A stretch of DNA of 30,364 nt from a virus: IMG/VR virus record IMGVR_UViG_3300025879_001526, positions 1 to 30,364 of that record; one strand, written 5' to 3'. The notes under the pieces were generated by a model that did not search any database, had not been told where the DNA came from, and worked only from the letters and a program-made list of their open reading frames with translations. The position numbers and the translations under genes were made by a program. Each line of letters starts with the position of its first letter. The first letter of the stretch is position 1. Below are positions 5,958 through 24,918 of this stretch, piece by piece.

Positions 5958-7876
5958 TATAATTGTCTTCTATTAGTATTAGTATTACTTTCTGGTTTGA
6001 TATCTCTTGTAGAACCCCCACCAGCTTGTTGATTTAATAACCTAGCTCTTGCCGCAAGTTGTTCATTTGCGGTGTAATTACCTCTACCTGTTTCAATTGG
6101 TGTATTAATACTAGGGTCCTCTATTGGTACAACTCTAGAACCAGGGAGTCTTCCAGCTGGTATTGATAAATCACCAGTACCATTTACTAAGAAAGCTCCA
6201 GGATTTAATATTCGGGCATTTGTTTGGGTGTTTGCAATCTGAGCTACACCATTTATGTTTTCCATTCTCACTTCATCATCAAACCCAATACCTCTAACAT
6301 TTATATCTCGTTGGTCAGTAAAGATATTAGGAGTTCTTGTTGTGTTTAACCCACGTTCTATTGACTGGAGGAAATTTTCTTCAGGTAAAAGACGTTTTAT
6401 TGGTATTATATCTGGTACCAAATCTGGTCTTGGTATTGGTGGTGGAACAACCGGTGGTTTAGGGTCTGAAATTATATTGGTTATAATTGGAACTGGTCTT
6501 GGAACTGGTACCGTAGTTACTCTTTCAACTGTTCTTGTTGTTTTTCCAGTTCTAATTTCGGTTATCGTATCATCCAACTCATCTAATGAATATGGGATAA
6601 TTTTAATATCATATCTACCAATATTTGCAAATGCCTTATGAGGTATTACAATACCAACCACTTCACCATTTCCCAAATTGTTAAACTCAAATGATTCAGT
6701 TCCAACAAATACAGTAACCGATTTAACAGCATCATTCTTTTTAAATGCAATTGGAATACCAGTATTTGAATTTATATTATGCGTTCTTGTCGATGAATCT
6801 AATAATTGAATCTTAGGTTCAGGTCCAAGTGGGGTTGGTGTTATCTTAGGTGGTGGTGGTGTTGGTGGTGTAAATATATCAGGTGGAGGTGGTGGGGGGG
6901 ATGGTGGTCTTACCAATACTCTTTCAACTTCAATATCAACGACTAAATTTGCTTTATCAAATACCGTATTAAATGTTAACGATTGTTGAGGTCTAGCTGT
7001 TATTGTTGTTGGTTTTTTACCTGGTTCAGTTTGTGTTATACTTTTTATAAGATAGCTTGAAGAAGGTCTAATATCAAATTTAGTAGTACTAACATCTGTA
7101 TAAACATTCTTACCTTTTACTATCTTAACATTAACAATTCCATTTTTTGTTGCAACAACACTACCATTAGTACCACTAATATTTACAATAAGAGTATTTA
7201 ATATTGGTGTAGGTGGCGTTGGAGTTGTTTCTATTTTATTCTTTATTAATTCAAAATCTAAAACAGATAAATTACCATTTGTACCAGTATAATTAACAAT
7301 TTGACCATTTACATATTTTTTTACAACTAACCTACGCAAGTTTGCACCTAATCTTTGCTGATATGAATCACCATTATTAATTCGTACTTCATTGAATGTA
7401 TCTATACCAGATACATTTTGGTTTGATATAATATATTCAACATTATTAGAGTAACCATCTTTTTGAACACGTATTCTTATATCACCAGTTTTTTGAATAT
7501 CAGATGGTGTATAATTTAAAGTAGATGATGTAGTTACTACATCGTTAACATATGTAGTTACTCCCTTTACATTTGTTTTTATAATATATGAATAATTTGT
7601 AAATGGAATATCATCACCTTGTATGGTTTTAGGAATAGTTACTCCAACTGGTGCATTGTATGCCCCTCCAACGAATTCTCCACTGGGTAATTTTTCCCTT
7701 ACATTTGGATTTGCCGTACCAAAATTCCCAGAAAGTGCCTCATATGCAGCTCCACCACTTATCTCCCATCTATTTTGATTAGGCTTCCAAGTAAAGCGTG
7801 TACCTCCGATATCCACTGTCTCAAATGAATAGTTACCTTTTCTACCTACGGGTGAATATGTGTTTTCAAGTTCCAT
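5957..7876 (-). CDS. Proline-rich baseplate/tail structural protein (639 aa)
   Basis: No family is recognised with certainty. Residues about 10-45 read GRKGNYSFETVDIGGTRFTW and then W, the small module also found at the N-terminus of the 1513-residue protein and the C-terminus of the protein at 28693-29835. Residues about 60-300 look beta-rich. Residues about 324-352 contain a six-proline run and further PPTPPPP tracts, and a second Pro-rich stretch lies near 450-495. The C-terminus is Asn/Arg/Gln-rich and probably disordered. Its stop overlaps the downstream ATG, and only 9 nt separate it from the upstream gene, so it is an integral member of the tail operon. The proline tracts suggest extended linkers in the baseplate or fibre network. 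Confidence 0.55.
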   Translation of the reverse strand: MELENTYSPVGRKGNYSFETVDIGGTRFTWKPNQNRWEISGGAAYEALSGNFGTANPNVREKLPSGEFVGGAYNAPVGVTIPKTIQGDDIPFTNYSYIIKTNVKGVTTYVNDVVTTSSTLNYTPSDIQKTGDIRIRVQKDGYSNNVEYIISNQNVSGIDTFNEVRINNGDSYQQRLGANLRRLVVKKYVNGQIVNYTGTNGNLSVLDFELIKNKIETTPTPPTPILNTLIVNISGTNGSVVATKNGIVNVKIVKGKNVYTDVSTTKFDIRPSSSYLIKSITQTEPGKKPTTITARPQQSLTFNTVFDKANLVVDIEVERVLVRPPSPPPPPPDIFTPPTPPPPKITPTPLGPEPKIQLLDSSTRTHNINSNTGIPIAFKKNDAVKSVTVFVGTESFEFNNLGNGEVVGIVIPHKAFANIGRYDIKIIPYSLDELDDTITEIRTGKTTRTVERVTTVPVPRPVPIITNIISDPKPPVVPPPIPRPDLVPDIIPIKRLLPEENFLQSIERGLNTTRTPNIFTDQRDINVRGIGFDDEVRMENINGVAQIANTQTNARILNPGAFLVNGTGDLSIPAGRLPGSRVVPIEDPSINTPIETGRGNYTANEQLAARARLLNQQAGGGSTRDIKPESNTNTNRRQL

Positions 7877-7885
7877 ATTGTATAA

Positions 7886-9403
7886 TTATAATAATCTTTC
7901 TTTCCTTGGTGGTTTTGGTCCCACTACTCTACCATTTTGTCTACTATCAGGTACAAGTGGGTCATATAAAACACTACCTCCACCCTTTGGTATTGGTTTT
8001 GGTTGGGGTTTAGGAGGTTGTACAATTATCGGCGTTGGCTTTGGCTTTGGACGTGGTAACGGTGGTAACGGTTCAGCTATCAATTGTGGTGGAGCTGGAC
8101 GTGGGAGTGGTTTAGGCTCTAATACTGGTTTACGTGGAATTGGTACTTCTCTAATTTCAGTACGTTCCGGTTCAATCGGTTTAGGTCTAGGCACAGGTGG
8201 TTTAGGCAATACTATTGGCTTTGGTGGCTTTGGTGGTGGTGGTGGTGGAATGAATGGAATTGGTGGTGGTGGTGGAGTTACCTTTGGTATAGGTGGTCTA
8301 GGTATTGTTTTGGGTGGTTTTGGTGGATTAGCTTTCACAAATACAGGAATAGGAACATCAATTGGAATTTCTTTTGTTATCTTAACTTCCAATTCAGTTA
8401 CCTCTAATAATTCTTGCTTAACTATTTTTCTTCGTACAATAGGTTCATCTGCCGCAATTTCTACATCACTTTGTTTTCTCTGCATTATCTCACCAACCTT
8501 ATCAAAACTATTATCCAAAACTTCATCATATTCAGTTTTACTTTGAATAGCTCTCATAGGTAAATAGAAATTAACGCAATCTACCAAAATTCTTTCAAAT
8601 AATAAACCTAATTGGTTTTGATTAATTTGTAAAATTGGTTTTGTTGATTTAGGTTTACCATAGTTTGGATTGGTAATACGAGATTCTCTATTCAAAAATT
8701 CATACTTAACAGCTTCTATAAATTTATTATACATTTTAGTTGTTAAAATATCAAATCCTTTAATTGAAAATTCTTTTACTAATCTATTATAAAATTTAGT
8801 TGAGTATGTAGTTTTAATATATGAATCAATTATGGATGATTTTATGTTTTCAACAAATTCAGGTATATTTTGAATTAAGTCCTCTCTAAAATCTGCACCA
8901 GAAAACATTATATTAAATCTCTTTAACAAATCAGTTTTATCCGATGTTTCGTTTCTGAGTGGTAATAATTTTACTTCAGTTCTGGATGGTGATATTTCTT
9001 TAATCCAAAGTTTTTCATATTTGTTTTCAAATCCAACTCGTTTATTCAATAAAGATATTTGTGTTTTAAAAATACCATTATCATATCCAGCTTCTCTTAA
9101 TAATCGTTCAACATCAATAAAATATTCAGATGGGAAATTAAATGATTGAAATAATGTTCCTTCAGGTATCATTATATAATCATTTATATTTTCAGTAGAT
9201 AATTGTATATATCTAACTAATTCACCACTATCACCTTGAGGTAATTGATTATCATTTACATCATAGATAATAAATTCAATAAAATCATTATCAGAAAATC
9301 CGAAAAATGATTGTAGGTTTCCTTGTTCGAAAATAGCTCTATCCTTTGAACTAATTCGATACCCCTTATTATCTACTATTTCTTTAAATGTCTTAATTGC
9401 CAT
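7886..9403 (-). CDS. Baseplate-associated structural protein with long proline-rich tail (505 aa)
   Basis: Residues 1-300 form an apparently globular, mixed alpha/beta region (MAIKTFKEIVDNKGYRISSK at the start) that I do not recognise. Residues about 355-475 are extremely proline-rich, with runs of five and six prolines and many PKP/PRP units, which should form a stiff polyproline-II rod. The last residues return to a basic tail (GPKPPRKERLL). Translation of such runs normally depends on elongation factor P. The corresponding DNA (about 7975-8340) is a skewed GGT/TGG-rich tract on the plus strand, strikingly unlike the rest of this AT-rich window. It lies 1 nt downstream of the coiled-coil protein gene and 9 nt upstream of another Pro-rich gene, within the baseplate block. 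Confidence 0.55.
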   Translation of the reverse strand: MAIKTFKEIVDNKGYRISSKDRAIFEQGNLQSFFGFSDNDFIEFIIYDVNDNQLPQGDSGELVRYIQLSTENINDYIMIPEGTLFQSFNFPSEYFIDVERLLREAGYDNGIFKTQISLLNKRVGFENKYEKLWIKEISPSRTEVKLLPLRNETSDKTDLLKRFNIMFSGADFREDLIQNIPEFVENIKSSIIDSYIKTTYSTKFYNRLVKEFSIKGFDILTTKMYNKFIEAVKYEFLNRESRITNPNYGKPKSTKPILQINQNQLGLLFERILVDCVNFYLPMRAIQSKTEYDEVLDNSFDKVGEIMQRKQSDVEIAADEPIVRRKIVKQELLEVTELEVKITKEIPIDVPIPVFVKANPPKPPKTIPRPPIPKVTPPPPPIPFIPPPPPPKPPKPIVLPKPPVPRPKPIEPERTEIREVPIPRKPVLEPKPLPRPAPPQLIAEPLPPLPRPKPKPTPIIVQPPKPQPKPIPKGGGSVLYDPLVPDSRQNGRVVGPKPPRKERLL

Positions 9404-18148: not shown

Positions 18149-18595
18149 TTACTTATAAACTTTGAATGGAGCAGTTTGGTTTAGATATCCATCATAATCT
18201 TTTCTGAACTCCTCTAATCGAGGTTCAATATCATCTGATTTAATAATCCAAAATTGAGCACCTGCAGCTTTTGCTTTTTCAATTTCTTGATTATCATCTG
18301 ATGAAGATATAATTCCAATTACACAACCATTACCATATTCGAAATTGATTTTACGAATCAACTCAATCCCATCAAAGGATGAACCGATTATATTTAAATC
18401 AACGAATACACACTCAGGTCTATCATCATCATTGTTATCAGGAAACCATTCTTTAAATTTTTTATCAGCTTCATCGGAAGAGTTAAGTGCTTCCAAAGAT
18501 AAAGTGATATCTAAGATACTACAAGCATCTTCGAATACTAGGTGGAATAAATCCTCATCATCCACCAGTAAAATTGAGTTAATCATTTCATTCAT
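18149..18595 (-). CDS. Response regulator, single receiver domain (148 aa)
   Basis: This is a complete CheY-like receiver. The acidic pair is D12-D13 (ILLVDDEDLF), the phosphoacceptor is D66 (CVFVDLNIIG), the conserved Ser/Thr is in the ISSSD segment (S97-S98), and the conserved lysine is K119 (FWIIKSDD). The motif order and spacing are right for an active receiver. There is no DNA-binding or enzymatic output domain, since the sequence ends about 20 residues after the last helix. Output must therefore come from protein-protein contact or phosphotransfer. The ATG overlaps the kinase stop codon by 4 nt (ATGA), so the pair is translationally coupled and almost certainly cognate. Confidence 0.9.
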   Translation of the reverse strand: MNEMINSILLVDDEDLFHLVFEDACSILDITLSLEALNSSDEADKKFKEWFPDNNDDDRPECVFVDLNIIGSSFDGIELIRKINFEYGNGCVIGIISSSDDNQEIEKAKAAGAQFWIIKSDDIEPRLEEFRKDYDGYLNQTAPFKVYK

Positions 18596-19824
18596 TTTAA
18601 ATTAATTCTTAATTTAGTGCCGCTATTTAATTTTTCGGCTGTTATTCCAAAACCATGTTCATTCAGAATTGCGATACAAATATTTAATCCCAATCCAGAA
18701 CCTCCTTCTTTTTGTCCTTCTTTTCTTGTATATGGTTTGGATAACTCAATGAACTCTTCATTAGTAATCCCCCTTCCATTATCTTCCACACACATTGTTG
18801 AATTATTTTCCATATAAACTCTAATTATCTTTGTACTACTATCGTTATACTTTAATCCATTTCTGATTAAGTTATCTATTGCCGTACAAAATAATGGTTC
18901 GTTTACCATTGTGGTTGGTAATCTCTCTATCTTAACTTGTGAGATGTAAGATGTAGAAGATAAGTAGTTTCTAAGTATCTCAGCAAGATTACACTCCTTC
19001 ATATCTAATTGTGCATCTTCCTTAACTAAGTTTGTAAATTCCTTTACACCCGAATATACTTTCTGAGTGTGTCTTAATCCCTCCTCTAACATTCGTAGTG
19101 GAGAACCTATTTTTAATTCTTTGATTTTTTCTTCTGATAATCTTCGTTGTAACGATGATAATCCTCTTGGCATATATGTGTTGATACCACTATGCATATC
19201 ATGTCGGAGAATCTTTGCAGCGTGTTCTAAGTAAGAGTTTTTCTGATTAACTTCTACTTCTGCTAGGTGTTGTAGTGTTGTATCGGTTGCTATCTTTAGA
19301 ACTTTATCGTAACCACCCTTTATACCCTTAATAGGAGTATAGTTACCAAATAACCAACGAGATGTTCCATCCTTTGCTATTCGTTCAAATTCACCACTTA
19401 TATTTTCTCCTCTTTTTAATCTCTGCCAAAACTCTCTATATTCCAAACTTTTCCCATATTGCTTTGGAACCATATTCTTATGTGCTTTATGTTTTAATTC
19501 CTTTTCGGTAAACTTAAACGTATTACAAAACTTTGAATTGGCTTCTAATATGTATCCATCCATATCCAACATTACAACTAAGTTTGATTTATCAATTGCT
19601 GCTAATTGTAAATCAATATTCTTTTCTTTGAGTTTTGTACTTTTGATGAAATTATATATGACATAAGAAAATGGTGGTATAAATAGAATTATACAACCAT
19701 ATCCAAATTCGGCTAAAAGATAAGAAGGTTCAAGCCATCTAAATATAATACAAGTTTGTACTATAAAAAAGATGAATATAATAGAACCTGCTATGCCTAA
19801 ACATATTTTTGCGGACTTATTCAA
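18592..19824 (-). CDS. Membrane sensor histidine kinase with PAS domain (410 aa)
   Basis: Hydrophobic segments lie at about 8-28 and 40-60, joined by a loop of only about 11 residues, so there is little periplasmic sensor. A PAS domain follows at about 72-183 (NLVVMLDMDGYILEANSKFC, then GTSRWLFGNYTPI). The dimerisation helix carries H208 in ILRHDMHSGIN. The ATPase domain shows an N-box with N318 and N322 (IDNLIRNGLKYN), a G1 box with D348, G350 and G352 (VEDNGRGI), and a G2 box GGSGLGLNI at 374-382. All residues needed for autophosphorylation are present. The start is TTG at 19824: no in-frame ATG lies upstream before a stop, and a later start would delete the membrane anchor. Expected partner: the overlapping response regulator. 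Sensing is probably cytoplasmic or membrane-state related. Confidence 0.9.
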   Translation of the reverse strand: MNKSAKICLGIAGSIIFIFFIVQTCIIFRWLEPSYLLAEFGYGCIILFIPPFSYVIYNFIKSTKLKEKNIDLQLAAIDKSNLVVMLDMDGYILEANSKFCNTFKFTEKELKHKAHKNMVPKQYGKSLEYREFWQRLKRGENISGEFERIAKDGTSRWLFGNYTPIKGIKGGYDKVLKIATDTTLQHLAEVEVNQKNSYLEHAAKILRHDMHSGINTYMPRGLSSLQRRLSEEKIKELKIGSPLRMLEEGLRHTQKVYSGVKEFTNLVKEDAQLDMKECNLAEILRNYLSSTSYISQVKIERLPTTMVNEPLFCTAIDNLIRNGLKYNDSSTKIIRVYMENNSTMCVEDNGRGITNEEFIELSKPYTRKEGQKEGGSGLGLNICIAILNEHGFGITAEKLNSGTKLRINLK

Positions 19825-19918: not shown

Positions 19919-20644
19919 CTAATAAGAAAAGAATTCATCTTCATCATTGTTATCAGATATTTCACCATGGTCTAGGTATTCATTTAACATTCGCTTCTGA
20001 TGAGTTTTCATAACATTAACTACTTTTGTAATATAATGTGTTTTACAATCTGTCATTTCTCTGATAAGAAGGTATAAGTGTTTTTTATTGAAATTTTCTA
20101 TATACTGACTTCTTCTAAATAATTCTAATATAGCATCTGCAATTTGAATATCTCGTTTCTTTACAAATACTTTTGTAAGATTCTTATCCCAATATGCTAA
20201 CATAAGTTCTTTGAATTCATTAAATTCATTTCCTTTTTGCTCGTGATAGAAATCATTTTCAGGATTCCAAGTTTCTGGCATCTTAGATAATAGTTCAGTC
20301 TTTTTGTATCTTTTATAATTTCCATTATTACTAAGAATTAAATGATTTTTAGCAACAATAGAAAAATAAGAAAATGCTCTACCTTTAAGTGGTTGATACA
20401 TATGAATCTTTTGTATCAATACAGATACTACTTCCTTTTTAACATCCTCTTTAGATACATCGAAGTATGAGAACTTAAATGTATTTAAAATATTTTCTGC
20501 TAACTTTTCAAATGGAAATTGTATTCTTTCTTTATATATTTGATTTCTGACTTTTGGGTCAGTACTAGCATTGTATTCAATGATAGCATCTTGAGCAGGA
20601 GTACCGAAATATATTTTTGACTTCTTTTTTCTAGGTCTGGGCAT
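19919..20644 (-). CDS. 55: gp55-like late-transcription sigma factor
   Basis: This 241-residue protein contains a helix with PLKGRAFSYFSIVAKNHLIL and then NNGNYKRYKKTELLS. This corresponds to the sigma region 2-like core conserved in T4 gp55 and its marine relatives (an aromatic-rich helix ending in a basic stretch). T4 gp55 (185 residues) binds host core polymerase and recognises the TATAAATA late promoter. Extra residues here lie at the basic N-terminus (MPRPRKKKSKIY) and the acidic C-terminus (DNNDEDEFFSY). The C-terminal acidic/aromatic tip could serve the sliding-clamp contact that T4 gp55 makes through its C-terminus, which is an inference. It follows a small membrane protein gene by 3 nt under an early-type promoter. 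Confidence 0.78.
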   Translation of the reverse strand: MPRPRKKKSKIYFGTPAQDAIIEYNASTDPKVRNQIYKERIQFPFEKLAENILNTFKFSYFDVSKEDVKKEVVSVLIQKIHMYQPLKGRAFSYFSIVAKNHLILSNNGNYKRYKKTELLSKMPETWNPENDFYHEQKGNEFNEFKELMLAYWDKNLTKVFVKKRDIQIADAILELFRRSQYIENFNKKHLYLLIREMTDCKTHYITKVVNVMKTHQKRMLNEYLDHGEISDNNDEDEFFSY

Positions 20645-20647
20645 ATT

Positions 20648-20917
20648 TTATAAATTATTTTTATATTTTTCAATAATATCTTTTAACTCTTTGAAAACCA
20701 CACCAACTTCATCATCGGATTCAAACGAACCTCTGATGTCGATTTCTTTCATCTCCTTCATCATATTTTCCAAAGTACCAATGGATAATTCATTTAGATT
20801 ATCCATATCGTTAGCAATTGTTTCTATTTGTCTAACCAATTGAGTTCCTCTGATAATAAAAAATATATTGGATATTACTAGAACTCCAATTATTATGTAT
20901 AAATAAATTTCTTCCAT
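20648..20917 (-). CDS. Small membrane-anchored protein (89 aa)
   Basis: One hydrophobic segment at about 4-24 (IYLYIIIGVLVISNIFFIIR) is followed by a charged helical domain containing GSFESDDEVGVVFKELKDII. The latter block looks like one I associate with small conserved proteins of T4-like marine phages. With no cleavable signal, the topology is probably N-terminal anchor and cytoplasmic coiled domain. It is the first gene after the early-type promoter at 20937-20966 and is co-transcribed with the gp55-like gene. Function unknown. Confidence 0.6.
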   Translation of the reverse strand: MEEIYLYIIIGVLVISNIFFIIRGTQLVRQIETIANDMDNLNELSIGTLENMMKEMKEIDIRGSFESDDEVGVVFKELKDIIEKYKNNL

Positions 20918-20966: not shown

Positions 20967-21194
20967 TTATGCTTCGCCTTTTTTTCCAAAGAAGGGAAAT
21001 GATGTAATTTCGTTTTCATCTTCTTCCTCTTTTTCTTTTTGTATTTCGATGTTTAGTTCTTTGATTTTTTTGATAATAGCATTATCAAATCTTACCTCAT
21101 CTATTAACTCCTCTTCAATTAATTCATCAACTATTGTTTCTAATATAATTTCCAAGGTTCTAATTTTTTGTTCTAATATATAGAGTCTTGTCAT
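20967..21194 (-). CDS. Small acidic helical protein (75 aa)
   Basis: It is helical throughout, with a leucine/isoleucine heptad N-terminus (RLYILEQKIRTLEIILETIV), a highly charged Lys/Glu stretch and a distinct C-terminal tail FPFFGKKGEA. The aromatic tail after an acidic linker resembles a short docking peptide. No family is recognised. It is the last gene of the uvdE operon, 3 nt after the previous gene, and its stop abuts the next promoter. Confidence 0.55.
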   Translation of the reverse strand: MTRLYILEQKIRTLEIILETIVDELIEEELIDEVRFDNAIIKKIKELNIEIQKEKEEEDENEITSFPFFGKKGEA

Positions 21195-21197
21195 ATG

Positions 21198-21449
21198 TTA
21201 TATAGTTAACGAACCAGTTGTTACGTTAAGTGAATGTAAAAATTCTTTGAATTCTTTATCTGATGGTGTTTCATAATCTAGCTCACCAAATGCTTTGTTA
21301 ATTGAGTTGTGATGATATCCCATTGATGATGCCATTCTAACACACATAATTTTAAATTCATGTATATTCATATCATCTGGTACATCAAACGTTACGTTTA
21401 TTGCCTCTCTATTTGTAGGCTCTTCCGATTTATATGATAATATTCCCAT
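21198..21449 (-). CDS. Small conserved-looking protein (83 aa)
   Basis: The core reads MNIHEFKIMCVRMASSMGYH and then SINKAFGEL, a small two-helix pattern I loosely associate with uncharacterised T4-like phage proteins. The N-terminus is beta-like (AINVTFDVPDD). Its start codon shares one base with the stop of the deformylase-like gene, so translation is coupled. Function unknown. Confidence 0.5.
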   Translation of the reverse strand: MGILSYKSEEPTNREAINVTFDVPDDMNIHEFKIMCVRMASSMGYHHNSINKAFGELDYETPSDKEFKEFLHSLNVTTGSLTI

Positions 21450-22027
21450 TATACTAATTGATATCCTTTATCTAAAAGAGGTTGTGCTTTTTTGTATTTA
21501 ACAAATTCCATTTCTCCTTCAGGTGATTGTAACATTACTCTTTCATTTCTACCAGGTGTTTTCTCTGCTTTAATTTGACCACTATATCTTCTGATTGGGG
21601 AGTTTATACTTACCCCATCAATAGAATCAATTAATCTCTGAGCAGTAATACATTCAAATAATCCCAAGTCATTCATATATTCTTCTTGGTCTTTCCATTC
21701 TTTTTTATCTGATGAGAATTCTACTACACCTAAGTTATCAGTATCTATTTTAAACCATTGATGTCTAGCAGTTTTTCTAACCTTTTTCTTTTTATCTAAT
21801 TCCTTTTCAAAATAAACAACCATCTCTTTAGAGGTTTCGATAACTTTTGGGTTTACTAATGTTAATTCATCATATTCTCCACCAAACTTAATAGTAACAA
21901 TACGTTTATCCATTCCAACATCAGATGCATTTACAGCATATTCGTTTTCTAATTTAGATATCTTTTCTTTATATTCGTTTAACTCTTCAGTTGTAACGGT
22001 AGTTTTTTCAATTCTCTTTACTATCAT
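21449..22027 (-). CDS. Peptide-deformylase-like protein lacking the catalytic motifs (192 aa)
   Basis: The framework of a peptide deformylase is visible. VGMDKRIVTIKFGGEYDELT then LVNPKVIETSKE corresponds to the strand-turn-strand after motif 1. NLGVVEFSSD corresponds to the strand after motif 2. ECITAQRLIDSIDGVSI aligns with the motif 3 helix. Each active-site motif is altered. GxGLAAPQ is replaced by YAVNASDVG (30-38), EGCLS by FEKELD (73-78) with the metal Cys gone, and QHExDH by QRLIDS (130-135) with both metal histidines and the catalytic Glu gone. The C-terminal extension (PGRNERVMLQSPEGEMEF and onward) looks intact. I infer a non-catalytic derivative of a phage deformylase. Alternatively it is an unrelated fold with chance similarity. 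It is the fourth gene of the uvdE operon. Confidence 0.6.
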   Translation of the reverse strand: MIVKRIEKTTVTTEELNEYKEKISKLENEYAVNASDVGMDKRIVTIKFGGEYDELTLVNPKVIETSKEMVVYFEKELDKKKKVRKTARHQWFKIDTDNLGVVEFSSDKKEWKDQEEYMNDLGLFECITAQRLIDSIDGVSINSPIRRYSGQIKAEKTPGRNERVMLQSPEGEMEFVKYKKAQPLLDKGYQLV

Positions 22028-22184
22028 AGTATTTTTTTATTTCGTTTGTTAAATAATCAATCGATTCGGCACTACCTATATATGCTCCATGTTTTGCGTA
22101 AAATGGAATCCACATATTTTTGTTAGTTTCGATTCTTTCTTTTAATTGGTATCTCTCAGGTAAGTGAACTTTTATATAACTCAT
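22008..22184 (-). CDS. Small protein between cupin and deformylase-like genes (58 aa)
   Basis: The ATG at 22184 opens 58 codons ending in TGA at 22008. The product begins MSYIKVHLPERYQLKERIET and ends YDSKEN, with an aromatic middle (MWIPFYAKHGAYIG). Its start overlaps the cupin stop (ATGA, 22181-22184) and its end overlaps the next gene by 20 nt. That arrangement fits the packing of this operon and fills an otherwise empty 150-base gap. It has no recognised family and no membrane segment. Confidence 0.7.
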   Translation of the reverse strand: MSYIKVHLPERYQLKERIETNKNMWIPFYAKHGAYIGSAESIDYLTNEIKKYYDSKEN

Positions 22185-22567
22185 AATAAATCTTCTGGTG
22201 TTTCTCTATAAACTCTGTAACTATCTTCATCAAAGTGTTCAGTTGAAACCTCAAATACAATTGAGTTATCTTCCAATGAAATTAATTGATGAGGTAATCC
22301 TCTATCGATTAAAACACTATCTCCTTTTTCTAATGTTTTACCTTCCAACTTTCCATCTTCCACATTCAACCAATTAAATTGAAATCTTCCCTCTTGTACA
22401 TACCAACTTTCTTTTTTCTTTAAGTGGTAATGCATTGAAAATCTATTTCTATCTTTTGTGAATACTAATAGCTTACCGCAATATTCATTATCATTGTGAA
22501 TCCATAATTCATATCCCCAATTCTTTTCTACTCTCTTAGGAGTCTTTATATCTACATCTATAATCAT
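22181..22567 (-). CDS. Cupin-fold protein (128 aa)
   Basis: A single cupin domain is visible with the metal-binding set H46-x-H48-x4-E53 (MHYHLKKKESWYVQEG) and H93 (IDRGLPHQLIS), inside the usual G-D-S-x-x-I-x-x-G-x-x-H motif 2. The opening KNWGYELWIHN and the overall length resemble the mannose-6-phosphate isomerase type II/WbuC-like cupins that act on or bind sugars. Its substrate here is unknown, and isomerase or epimerase activity is not implied by the motifs alone. Its ATG overlaps the uvdE stop by 4 nt. Confidence 0.75.
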   Translation of the reverse strand: MIIDVDIKTPKRVEKNWGYELWIHNDNEYCGKLLVFTKDRNRFSMHYHLKKKESWYVQEGRFQFNWLNVEDGKLEGKTLEKGDSVLIDRGLPHQLISLEDNSIVFEVSTEHFDEDSYRVYRETPEDLL

Positions 22568-23517
22568 TCTGAATAACTTTGTGTGTTTAACAATCCACTA
22601 TACTCACATACATTAAACTTTCCCATATGTGGTAAGATGGCAAGTTCTTTTGCTTTTGCTTCTACCATTACATCAACATCCATTCCATATAGTTTAGGAA
22701 GTTTGTTAATATAATCTGAGTGAGCCTGTTCTTTAATTTTTACATTTTCTTCGTGTAATCTCTTAGACTCAGAATAATGTACAATTGGTTTAATATTTTT
22801 AGGCCAAGTTGTAATTGCTAACTTCAATGCATCTTCTTCGGTTAATCCACCTGTACAAAATTGATGATGATGATAATCAAATACAATTGGAATACCTATT
22901 TGTTCATTTAGATACATCAAATCCTTTACTGAATACATTGATGCTTTATCATCGTTTTCAACTGTCAATCTACTTCGTACCGAGTGTGATAATTTTTTAA
23001 AGTTTTCACAAAATCTTTTCATTGCAGATTCCTTGTCTCCATACACCCCATTACAATGTATATTAATTTTATTATAATGAGACTTTTCCAATCCCATTAA
23101 ATCAAATATTTTTGCATGTAATTCTAAATCCTTAAATGTGTTTTCAACAACATGAGGTCTTGGTGAAACTAATACATTAAATGGGCCAGGATGTGAAGTG
23201 ATTCTAATACCATTTTTCTTTGCATAATTACCACATGCTAACAATATGGTTTTGATTCTAGCATAGTGTGGAGATTTCTCTATCTCATATTCAGAACCCC
23301 AAGGAAACATTTCGGAAGATAATCTGAATAGTTTTATTCCATTCTCATTATTCCATTCTAAGATTCTATACAAATCTCTAGCATTTTGTAATGCCAATTC
23401 AGTTGCATATTCAACACCCCTTTCTTGGAATGTTCTTTTAATCATTGAACGATTTGTTGTTACTTTTGGTTTTTGACTCGATAGAGTCATGTTAATACAA
23501 GCGTATCCTAAATTCAT
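22564..23517 (-). CDS. uvdE: UV damage endonuclease UvdE
   Basis: This 317-residue TIM-barrel nuclease nicks DNA 5' of UV photoproducts. It starts MNLGYACINMTL, typical of the family, and carries the expected metal and active-site positions: H109 (ITSHPGPFNVL), H154 (INIHCNGVYG), E187 (LTVENDD), D214 and H216-H218 (VFDYHHHQF), H247 (PIVHYSESK), H266 (QAHSDYI) and E286 (DVMVEAKAKE). Length matches bacterial UvdE (about 300). T4 uses DenV for this task, so UvdE is a functional replacement suited to sunlit water. It is the first gene of a six-gene operon under the early-type promoter at 23548-23577. Confidence 0.93.
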   Translation of the reverse strand: MNLGYACINMTLSSQKPKVTTNRSMIKRTFQERGVEYATELALQNARDLYRILEWNNENGIKLFRLSSEMFPWGSEYEIEKSPHYARIKTILLACGNYAKKNGIRITSHPGPFNVLVSPRPHVVENTFKDLELHAKIFDLMGLEKSHYNKINIHCNGVYGDKESAMKRFCENFKKLSHSVRSRLTVENDDKASMYSVKDLMYLNEQIGIPIVFDYHHHQFCTGGLTEEDALKLAITTWPKNIKPIVHYSESKRLHEENVKIKEQAHSDYINKLPKLYGMDVDVMVEAKAKELAILPHMGKFNVCEYSGLLNTQSYSE

Positions 23518-23583: not shown

Positions 23584-24918
23584 TTAATAAGTTTTTGAAT
23601 CGAAGTTATCAGGATAGTTTGTATCCTTTTCGTTTTTGATATAAGTCAACCAATAGTTAACTGCATTTTGATTATTAATCCACTTACTTCTATCACCCCA
23701 ATTGAAATTAGGTCTAGCATAAAATGGCTTTTCATTCATCACATATTGTGCTCTCTTAGAAGATGCGGGTCTTGGTTCATCAATCAAACCATCTCCGGTA
23801 TTATCATATCCATCAATAGTACCATCACCATCGATATCAACACCTCTTCTAGAAGTATCTTTTTTTAGAGTATCTATGGGATTTATGAATTCTTTATATG
23901 AACTTGTAGCTTCTTTTAAAGCTTCGTTAGGTTCTGATTCCTTTTCAGATTCTTCTACAATTTTTGAAATATCTTCTGGTGTTAAATCTTTAACCATATC
24001 ATTCATTACTAAATCAAGTGCATGGTCTTCATCCCATTCCTCGGCGTCACTATCATCAATCTCTTCTTCTTCGGGCTCTTCATCATATAACTCTCTCTTA
24101 CGAATTATCTTTTCTTTATCAACAATTCCCCTATCAACTTTTATTGCGTTGTTAAAAGCGATTACTAATGCAACTGCAAGTGGGTCGAATACAAAGATAA
24201 TAATTAGAATGAACCAATTGATAATAACATCCATAGGCTTATCTAATAATCCACTAAGGTATTCTAATGGGCCCAATTCAGATGATACACCTTCTGATGA
24301 TTCAACATCTAATATTTTTAATTGAATTGATTGTAATGAATCTGCTGCTACTTCTCTTTTCGCTTGAACACCTTTACGATTTTGTTCTTCAACTTCGATA
24401 CGTTTTTGAGAAATCCTAAGTTCGGAAGTAGAGATGGTTGTTCTAACGCCCCCAACCACCGAGGTGTCTCGTACTTGGATTGATTGAGATTTTGCATTAG
24501 AAAGAGTACTAATGTTACCACTAATTCTTTTAAGTTCTTCATCATATCTTATTACATCATCACCCCAAAACTTTTCTTTTTGTTGTAGGAATGCTAATTG
24601 TTTTTCTTTTATACTGAATTGATTGAATGTATCTTGAAATGCAGAGGTTAAGAATCCGTAGATACCTAATGATGTTATAAGGATTAAAATAAGAACTGCT
24701 CCACTTAGATAGATTCTAAATGACTTGTTTATCTTATCCCAATAGTTGTAAAGGTATCCTGCAGTAATAAGTTTAGCAAGTTCCAATGAACTAGCCATTA
24801 CTATTACAGATAAAGATGCTCCTGCAAATAGTTTAGATAAACCACTTACGGAGAAGAATGCTGCATTGAATGCTACAAACAATGCTGATAATCCTAGCAA
24901 TAAAGTTCTAAATTTCAT
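23584..24918 (-). CDS. Multi-pass membrane protein with acidic tail and Ca-binding-type loop (444 aa)
   Basis: Hydrophobic segments lie at about 5-25, 33-57, 70-92 and 230-256. The 92-228 stretch is a long charged helical region that would form a coiled coil. The C-terminal ~185 residues are soluble, with a strongly acidic part (residues 279-299) and a DIDGDGTIDGYD loop at 361-372 followed by TGDGLID, like the EF-hand/dockerin or thrombospondin-3 calcium loops. The N-terminal SVIVMASSLELAKLITAGYL block is one I recognise in membrane proteins of marine phages, function unknown. It follows the 57-residue gene with a 9-nt gap. A role in membrane remodelling or superinfection control is possible but unsupported. 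Confidence 0.6.
   Translation of the reverse strand: MKFRTLLLGLSALFVAFNAAFFSVSGLSKLFAGASLSVIVMASSLELAKLITAGYLYNYWDKINKSFRIYLSGAVLILILITSLGIYGFLTSAFQDTFNQFSIKEKQLAFLQQKEKFWGDDVIRYDEELKRISGNISTLSNAKSQSIQVRDTSVVGGVRTTISTSELRISQKRIEVEEQNRKGVQAKREVAADSLQSIQLKILDVESSEGVSSELGPLEYLSGLLDKPMDVIINWFILIIIFVFDPLAVALVIAFNNAIKVDRGIVDKEKIIRKRELYDEEPEEEEIDDSDAEEWDEDHALDLVMNDMVKDLTPEDISKIVEESEKESEPNEALKEATSSYKEFINPIDTLKKDTSRRGVDIDGDGTIDGYDNTGDGLIDEPRPASSKRAQYVMNEKPFYARPNFNWGDRSKWINNQNAVNYWLTYIKNEKDTNYPDNFDSKTY

Follow-up and report, generated by a model that had tools for sequence, protein, structure and literature searches.

New proteins are trimmed at their start by the enzyme peptide deformylase (PDF). The PDF of E. 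coli has a C-terminal helix with which it binds ribosomal proteins at the exit of the tunnel (PMC12690207, PMC5591237). Published viral PDFs are described as having kept the catalytic motifs and as missing the long C-terminal region, and 2/4 viral PDFs tested for complementation did not complement (PMC5591237). A preliminary description of the locus studied here had taken phage deformylases to be normally active and short, which is broadly consistent with that work except for the two failures. PDFs of type 3 are weakly active or inactive and occur in Archaea, in trypanosomatid mitochondria and in some bacteria, and some of the bacterial ones sit beside an active copy; their substitutions affect one or several motif residues, mainly in motifs I and II (PMC5591237, PMC12690207). 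Here, we describe a large group of uncultured phages in which a PDF has lost its whole set of catalytic residues.

A deformylase relative in a T4-related phage

The window, by which we mean the whole stretch of DNA analysed, is a virus record of 30,364 bases from a T4-related tailed phage, and its genes include those for baseplate wedge proteins, PhoH, UvdE and an Hsp20 relative. One open reading frame on the minus strand (21449-22027) starts with ATG, stays open to its stop and encodes 192 aa; it shares 20 nt with its upstream and 1 nt with its downstream neighbour. We refer to its product as a pseudo-deformylase and to its relatives with substituted motifs as the erased family. The gene and the segments discussed below are as follows.

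21449..22027, minus strand: pseudo-deformylase gene, 192 aa, with a PF01327 match, a deformylase fold by AlphaFold2 and Foldseek, and intact relatives 42-45% identical
21908..21946, minus strand: equivalent of motif I, residues 28-40 (NEYAVNASDVGMD), with the catalytic Gln replaced by an invariant Asp36
21794..21811, minus strand: equivalent of motif II, residues 73-78 (FEKELD, versus EGCLS), with the metal Cys replaced by Glu76
21623..21640, minus strand: equivalent of motif III, residues 130-135 (QRLIDS, versus QHEIDH), with His replaced by Arg131, Glu by Leu132 and His by Ser135
21452..21556, minus strand: C-terminal mini-domain, residues 158-192, 35 aa, GRNExV..GE..VKxKK

The 192-aa protein matched Pfam family PF01327 with an E value of 1.8e-7 and 31.3 bits (gathering cut-off, 22.8). 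All members of the family alignment A2 (47/47) matched PF01327 at E <= 1, and most of the erased members tested scored above the Pfam deformylase cut-off. When searched against the PDB, the erased-family profile returned deformylases only (17/17 matches, weak, best E 0.011), and the best profile match to a solved structure was 3UWA, the PDF of cyanophage S-SSM7. A sequence search of the PDB with the 192-aa protein alone gave weak matches only; those to flavivirus NS5 (E 0.08) were not significant and were set aside. The AlphaFold2 model of the pseudo-deformylase, based on a 47-sequence alignment, had a mean pLDDT of 86.7, and deformylases made up the whole of its best 50 PDB matches in Foldseek (E about 1e-5 to 1e-4, TMt 0.52-0.69). 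Its best viral match was a phage Def protein (E 3.7e-15).

The decisive link came from intact phage PDFs that we picked up by scanning DNA for the pattern of one core segment, TDNLGxVEF. Three of them (L275, L285 and L287) were 42-45% identical to the window protein, with E values of 9e-49 to 3e-52, which excludes a chance likeness. The 192-aa protein is a member of the PDF superfamily by descent, connected to members with canonical motifs through an unbroken chain of homologues. The deformylase fold claimed in the preliminary description was thus borne out by the PF01327 match, by the predicted structure and by the intact relatives, and the profile search and structure prediction that it had proposed as checks both gave deformylases.

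Active site, clade and operon position

We aligned 45 erased with 33 intact sequences and counted the residues in the catalytic columns. All five catalytic positions were replaced in 45/45 erased members and canonical in 33/33 related phage PDFs, which answers the survey of relatives suggested in the preliminary description. At the position of the motif I Gln, Asp was found in 45/45 erased and Gln in 33/33 intact proteins. The metal Cys of motif II had become Asp (40 members) or Glu (5 members), and the first His of motif III Arg (44 members) or Lys (1 member); in place of the catalytic Glu of motif III there was Leu, Ala or Gly, and Ala or Ser stood at the position of the second His. Glu74, Arg88, Gln130 and Asp134 were retained in both groups. 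In the erased family the glycines of motif I were lost and variable, and the N-terminal part was shortened.

None of the catalytic residues that mark active PDFs in motif I (Gln of GxGLxAxQ), motif II (Cys of E-x-C-L-S) and motif III (both His and the Glu of QHExDH) was found in the erased protein, for which, judging from these substitutions, catalysis by the known mechanism would be impossible. By the equivalence of aligned positions, the metal appears to have been replaced by a charged cluster formed by Asp36, Asp/Glu76 and Arg131. The preliminary description had correctly reported the motifs as erased as far as the residues that it named and the segments FEKELD and QRLIDS are concerned; it left the catalytic Gln of motif I (Asp36 here) unnamed and missed both the C-terminal extension (residues 158-192) and the fixed, charged replacements at the catalytic positions.

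In a tree of phage PDFs only, which does not fix the exact sister group of the erased clade, the erased proteins formed one clade (100/100) nested among C-extended intact phage PDFs; a long-branch caveat applies to this clade, since its stem is long (0.85). The intact C-extended PDFs, all from uncultured phages, include L273, L275, L283-L288, L326, L094, L208 and others. The genes around the pseudo-deformylase are listed here.

22564..23517, minus strand: UV endonuclease UvdE (Pfam 3.3e-69), also upstream of an intact PDF, e.g. in L095
22181..22567, minus strand: cupin, cysteine dioxygenase-like, 128 aa (Pfam Cupin_2 8.7e-7, phrog_7851 2.4e-35)
22008..22184, minus strand: 58-aa ORF that overlaps the pseudo-deformylase gene at its start, upstream in 45/48 erased and 0/24 intact loci
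21198..21449, minus strand: 83-aa neighbour (cluster 9), lying downstream of the PDF in 45/45 erased loci and in 8/9 of the nearest intact ones
20967..21194, minus strand: 75-aa neighbour (cluster 14), lying downstream of the PDF in 45/45 erased loci and in 7/9 of the nearest intact ones
20648..20917, minus strand: 89-aa neighbour with a membrane anchor (cluster 2), present in 45/45 erased loci and, among intact loci, in 13/15 and 9/9
19919..20644, minus strand: 241-aa protein that may be a late sigma factor resembling T4 gp55, present in 45/45 erased loci and, among intact loci, in 13/15 and 9/9

The gene order PDF-9-14-2-sigma-like of the intact locus L273 is that of the erased loci, and the order UvdE-PDF-2-sigma-like was found in the intact locus L095. 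Since the erased proteins form one clade among intact PDFs and their genes occupy the same operon position, we infer that catalysis was lost in place. For the same reason of common descent, neighbour counts over the erased loci are not independent events. The cupin gene is almost exclusive to erased loci, where it lies upstream of the PDF in 44/48 compared with 1/24 intact loci; the basal erased members L080/L081 and L337 carry neither the cupin nor the 58-aa ORF. The assignment of the 241-aa protein as a gp55-like late sigma factor is tentative, the match to T4 gp55 being weak and collinear (hhalign P 0.001, probability 21%) and that of a relative to phrog_234 having an E value of 0.13. When we looked for the host, sigma-like relatives were seen in just a few metagenome-assembled genomes, which belong to mixed taxa.

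Some further genes near this slot were noted. A membrane PAS histidine kinase (18592-19824, minus strand; HATPase_c 1.4e-13, PAS_3 3e-10) adjoins a response-regulator receiver (18149-18595, minus strand; 3e-7); this two-component pair, flanked by the sigma-like gene on one side and the baseplate operon on the other, was also found in L028 and L029 and in none of the other relatives compared. A 444-aa membrane protein without a Pfam family (23584-24918, minus strand) lies upstream of the PDF slot in 18/23 loci, intact and erased. In Microcystis phage Mel-JY01 (L268), the position equivalent to the PDF slot, upstream of the sigma-like gene, is taken by a gene (7745-8428) whose translation reads like that of a ClpP-type protease subunit.

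We found no second PF01327 match in erased-gene contigs of 100-274 kb; these contigs may be fragments, so the absence of a second PDF is not proven. The erased gene was not present in the bacterial genomes of the collection searched, and the C-extended PDF family as a whole was absent from the cultured phage records searched. Its sole match in the phage collection was an intact copy in an uncultured 484-kb genome. The nearest cultured phages were Flavobacterium immuto phages, which are without a PDF gene, and Microcystis phage Mel-JY01, which has an intact PDF elsewhere in its genome.

The C-terminal mini-domain and selection on the gene

The AlphaFold2 model places a flexible linker (pLDDT 62) before the C-terminal mini-domain, which is predicted to form a beta hairpin and a helix. 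The mini-domain is common to the erased proteins and their intact C-extended relatives and is among their most conserved parts; R160, N161, K177 and K179 are invariant across both groups. An earlier measure of this conservation had used loci found by patterns inside the domain itself; because a sample selected in this way is biased, it was replaced by a measure on an independent scan. In this second sample, which was not selected on the region, the C-terminal core (residues 158-181) had a mean entropy of 0.55 bits versus a background of 1.04 (p 0.0004, by a permutation that takes columns and related sequences as independent). The net charge of the mini-domain is small and positive, +1 to +3.

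In the 15 records searched, the mini-domain occurred once per genome, in the PDF gene only. No sequence relative of it was found in the PDB or in cultured phages, and a Foldseek search with its fold gave no match (best E 1.2). It resembles SEC-C, the C-terminal metal-binding domain of SecA, which binds ribosomes (PMC6620043), in its GRN(D/E) start and in a later KYK-type motif, but the zinc ligands of SEC-C (CxC and C[CH], both after GRN) are missing. An origin of the extension from a SEC-C zinc domain was rejected as unsupported: residues 158-192 contain no cysteines, and the hhalign probability was 21%, over the GRN stretch only. Separately, we observed a phage PDF at L225:6001-6501 that has kept motifs II and III intact and ends in a genuine SEC-C zinc tail (GRNDPCICGSGKKYKKCC); phage PDFs thus have a second solution to the C-terminal part.

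We then estimated selection on the gene. Because NG86 estimates of dN/dS on distant pairs suffered from saturation, they were dropped in favour of close pairs. Compared with its near relatives, the pseudo-deformylase had dN/dS values of 0.08-0.17, and the median over 70 close pairs was 0.17. Among the regions compared by pooled pN/pS, that of motif I was the least constrained (0.41), followed by the motif II region (residues 71-88; 0.31), residues 1-157 (0.29), the C-terminal domain (0.15) and the motif III helix (residues 125-138; 0.106). Motif I contributes part of the peptide groove, so constraint on the substrate groove looks relaxed.

Possible roles and comparison with known deformylases

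Since no catalytic residue is left but strong selection acts on the rest of the protein, and especially on its tail, the pseudo-deformylase was probably kept as a binding protein and not as an enzyme. A non-catalytic binding role is in our opinion very likely, and we lean towards the fuller reading, in which the in-place descendant of an active phage PDF is kept for binding. The preliminary description had likewise proposed a repurposed, non-catalytic PDF and an intact frame that is not a decaying pseudogene; both proposals stand, given one clade, the operon slot of active PDFs, dN/dS of 0.08-0.17 and fixed replacement residues. Loss of the catalytic residues is also what a decaying, functionless remnant would display, but the low dN/dS contradicts decay, the frame is intact in dozens of contigs, the replacements are fixed and the C-terminal domain is conserved, so that we give a remnant hardly any credence.

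One history accounts for this most economically. The ancestral phage PDF would already have had a second, non-catalytic job in its C-terminal mini-domain; catalysis would have been lost, and only the job of the mini-domain would survive in the erased clade. Docking near the ribosome tunnel exit would be the likeliest form of this job, because the ribosome anchor of E. coli PDF lies at the same place in the chain, after the PDF core; it is among the options that the preliminary description had named, and it is favoured here mainly because the mini-domain is conserved. Once docked, the pseudo-deformylase could compete with or reorganise host N-terminal processing factors. By this analogy, the ribosome is a plausible target, though we rate it as somewhat short of probable. 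Counting against it, the mini-domain matches nothing by sequence or fold, and its positive net charge is small. The most detailed version is that C-extended phage PDFs are bifunctional and that the erased clade represents the second function alone, docking on the host ribosome exit or on another host N-terminal processing component and redirecting nascent-chain processing in infection, on a dead enzyme with a fixed salt-bridge cluster; this is speculative and unlikely to hold in all its parts.

The main rival to ribosome docking is an adaptor role within the operon, in which the protein would be a non-catalytic partner of the phage transcription or assembly machinery, e.g. of the sigma-like, 83-aa or 58-aa protein, and the ribosome link would be gone. 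The sigma-like and small genes do follow the pseudo-deformylase in 45/45 erased loci, and the 58-aa ORF, which overlaps the gene start in the window, is confined to the erased side of the comparison given above. However, the sigma-like neighbour is equally fixed beside active PDFs and its assignment is weak, and the basal erased loci are without the 58-aa gene, so erasure is independent of that gene. We consider the adaptor doubtful. For docking, too, the operon context is no pointer to a new role, since active PDFs share it.

Two other readings concern the old active site. The preliminary description had suggested, among other options, a binder of N-termini, perhaps a decoy or inhibitor. In the form considered here, such a protein would act dominantly against host deformylase or N-terminal processing and would still bind N-terminal peptides in the old groove. 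The PDF fold is retained and the framework of the groove can still be recognised in the sequence, but the motif I region shows the weakest constraint (0.41 versus 0.29 for residues 1-157), has lost its glycines at now variable positions and follows a shortened N-terminal part; the apparent relaxation of the groove argues against the suggestion, which is weakened and now seems quite improbable. A site for new chemistry or a new ligand on the invariant Asp36, Asp/Glu76 and Arg131 would explain the fixed, charged replacements seen in all 45 divergent members and the high constraint on the motif III segment. An Asp-Arg-Asp cluster is also expected of a structural salt bridge replacing the metal, however, and the analysis indicated no known enzyme with such an arrangement, and we assign this reading very little probability.

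Retention as a docking protein is the reading that we prefer. The family is of wider interest in two respects. Erased PDFs may be miscounted as deformylases in surveys, since most of those tested pass the Pfam cut-off though catalysis by the known mechanism would be impossible. Moreover, what has been conserved in them suggests that phage deformylases have a second role that is not enzymatic, a question that is directly testable because matched intact and erased orthologues occupy the same operon slot.

Our searches of the open-access literature turned up no phage PDF family described as having lost every catalytic residue. The erased family has fold and descent in common with the viral PDFs (type 4, Vp16-type; S-SSM7 PDF, 3UWA), and it is the reverse of those described, with its motifs lost and a C-terminal domain present (PMC5591237). 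With the intact C-extended phage PDFs it shares the operon slot and the C-terminal mini-domain, whereas these have kept Gln, Cys, His, Glu and His in 33/33 cases. It is a pseudoenzyme of a known enzyme family, in which inactive type 3 PDFs were already known. Like type 3 PDFs, it has substituted catalytic motifs; by their descriptions it differs from them in that all five catalytic residues are replaced, and in being phage-borne, having a C-terminal mini-domain of its own and being the sole PDF-like gene in the contigs searched.
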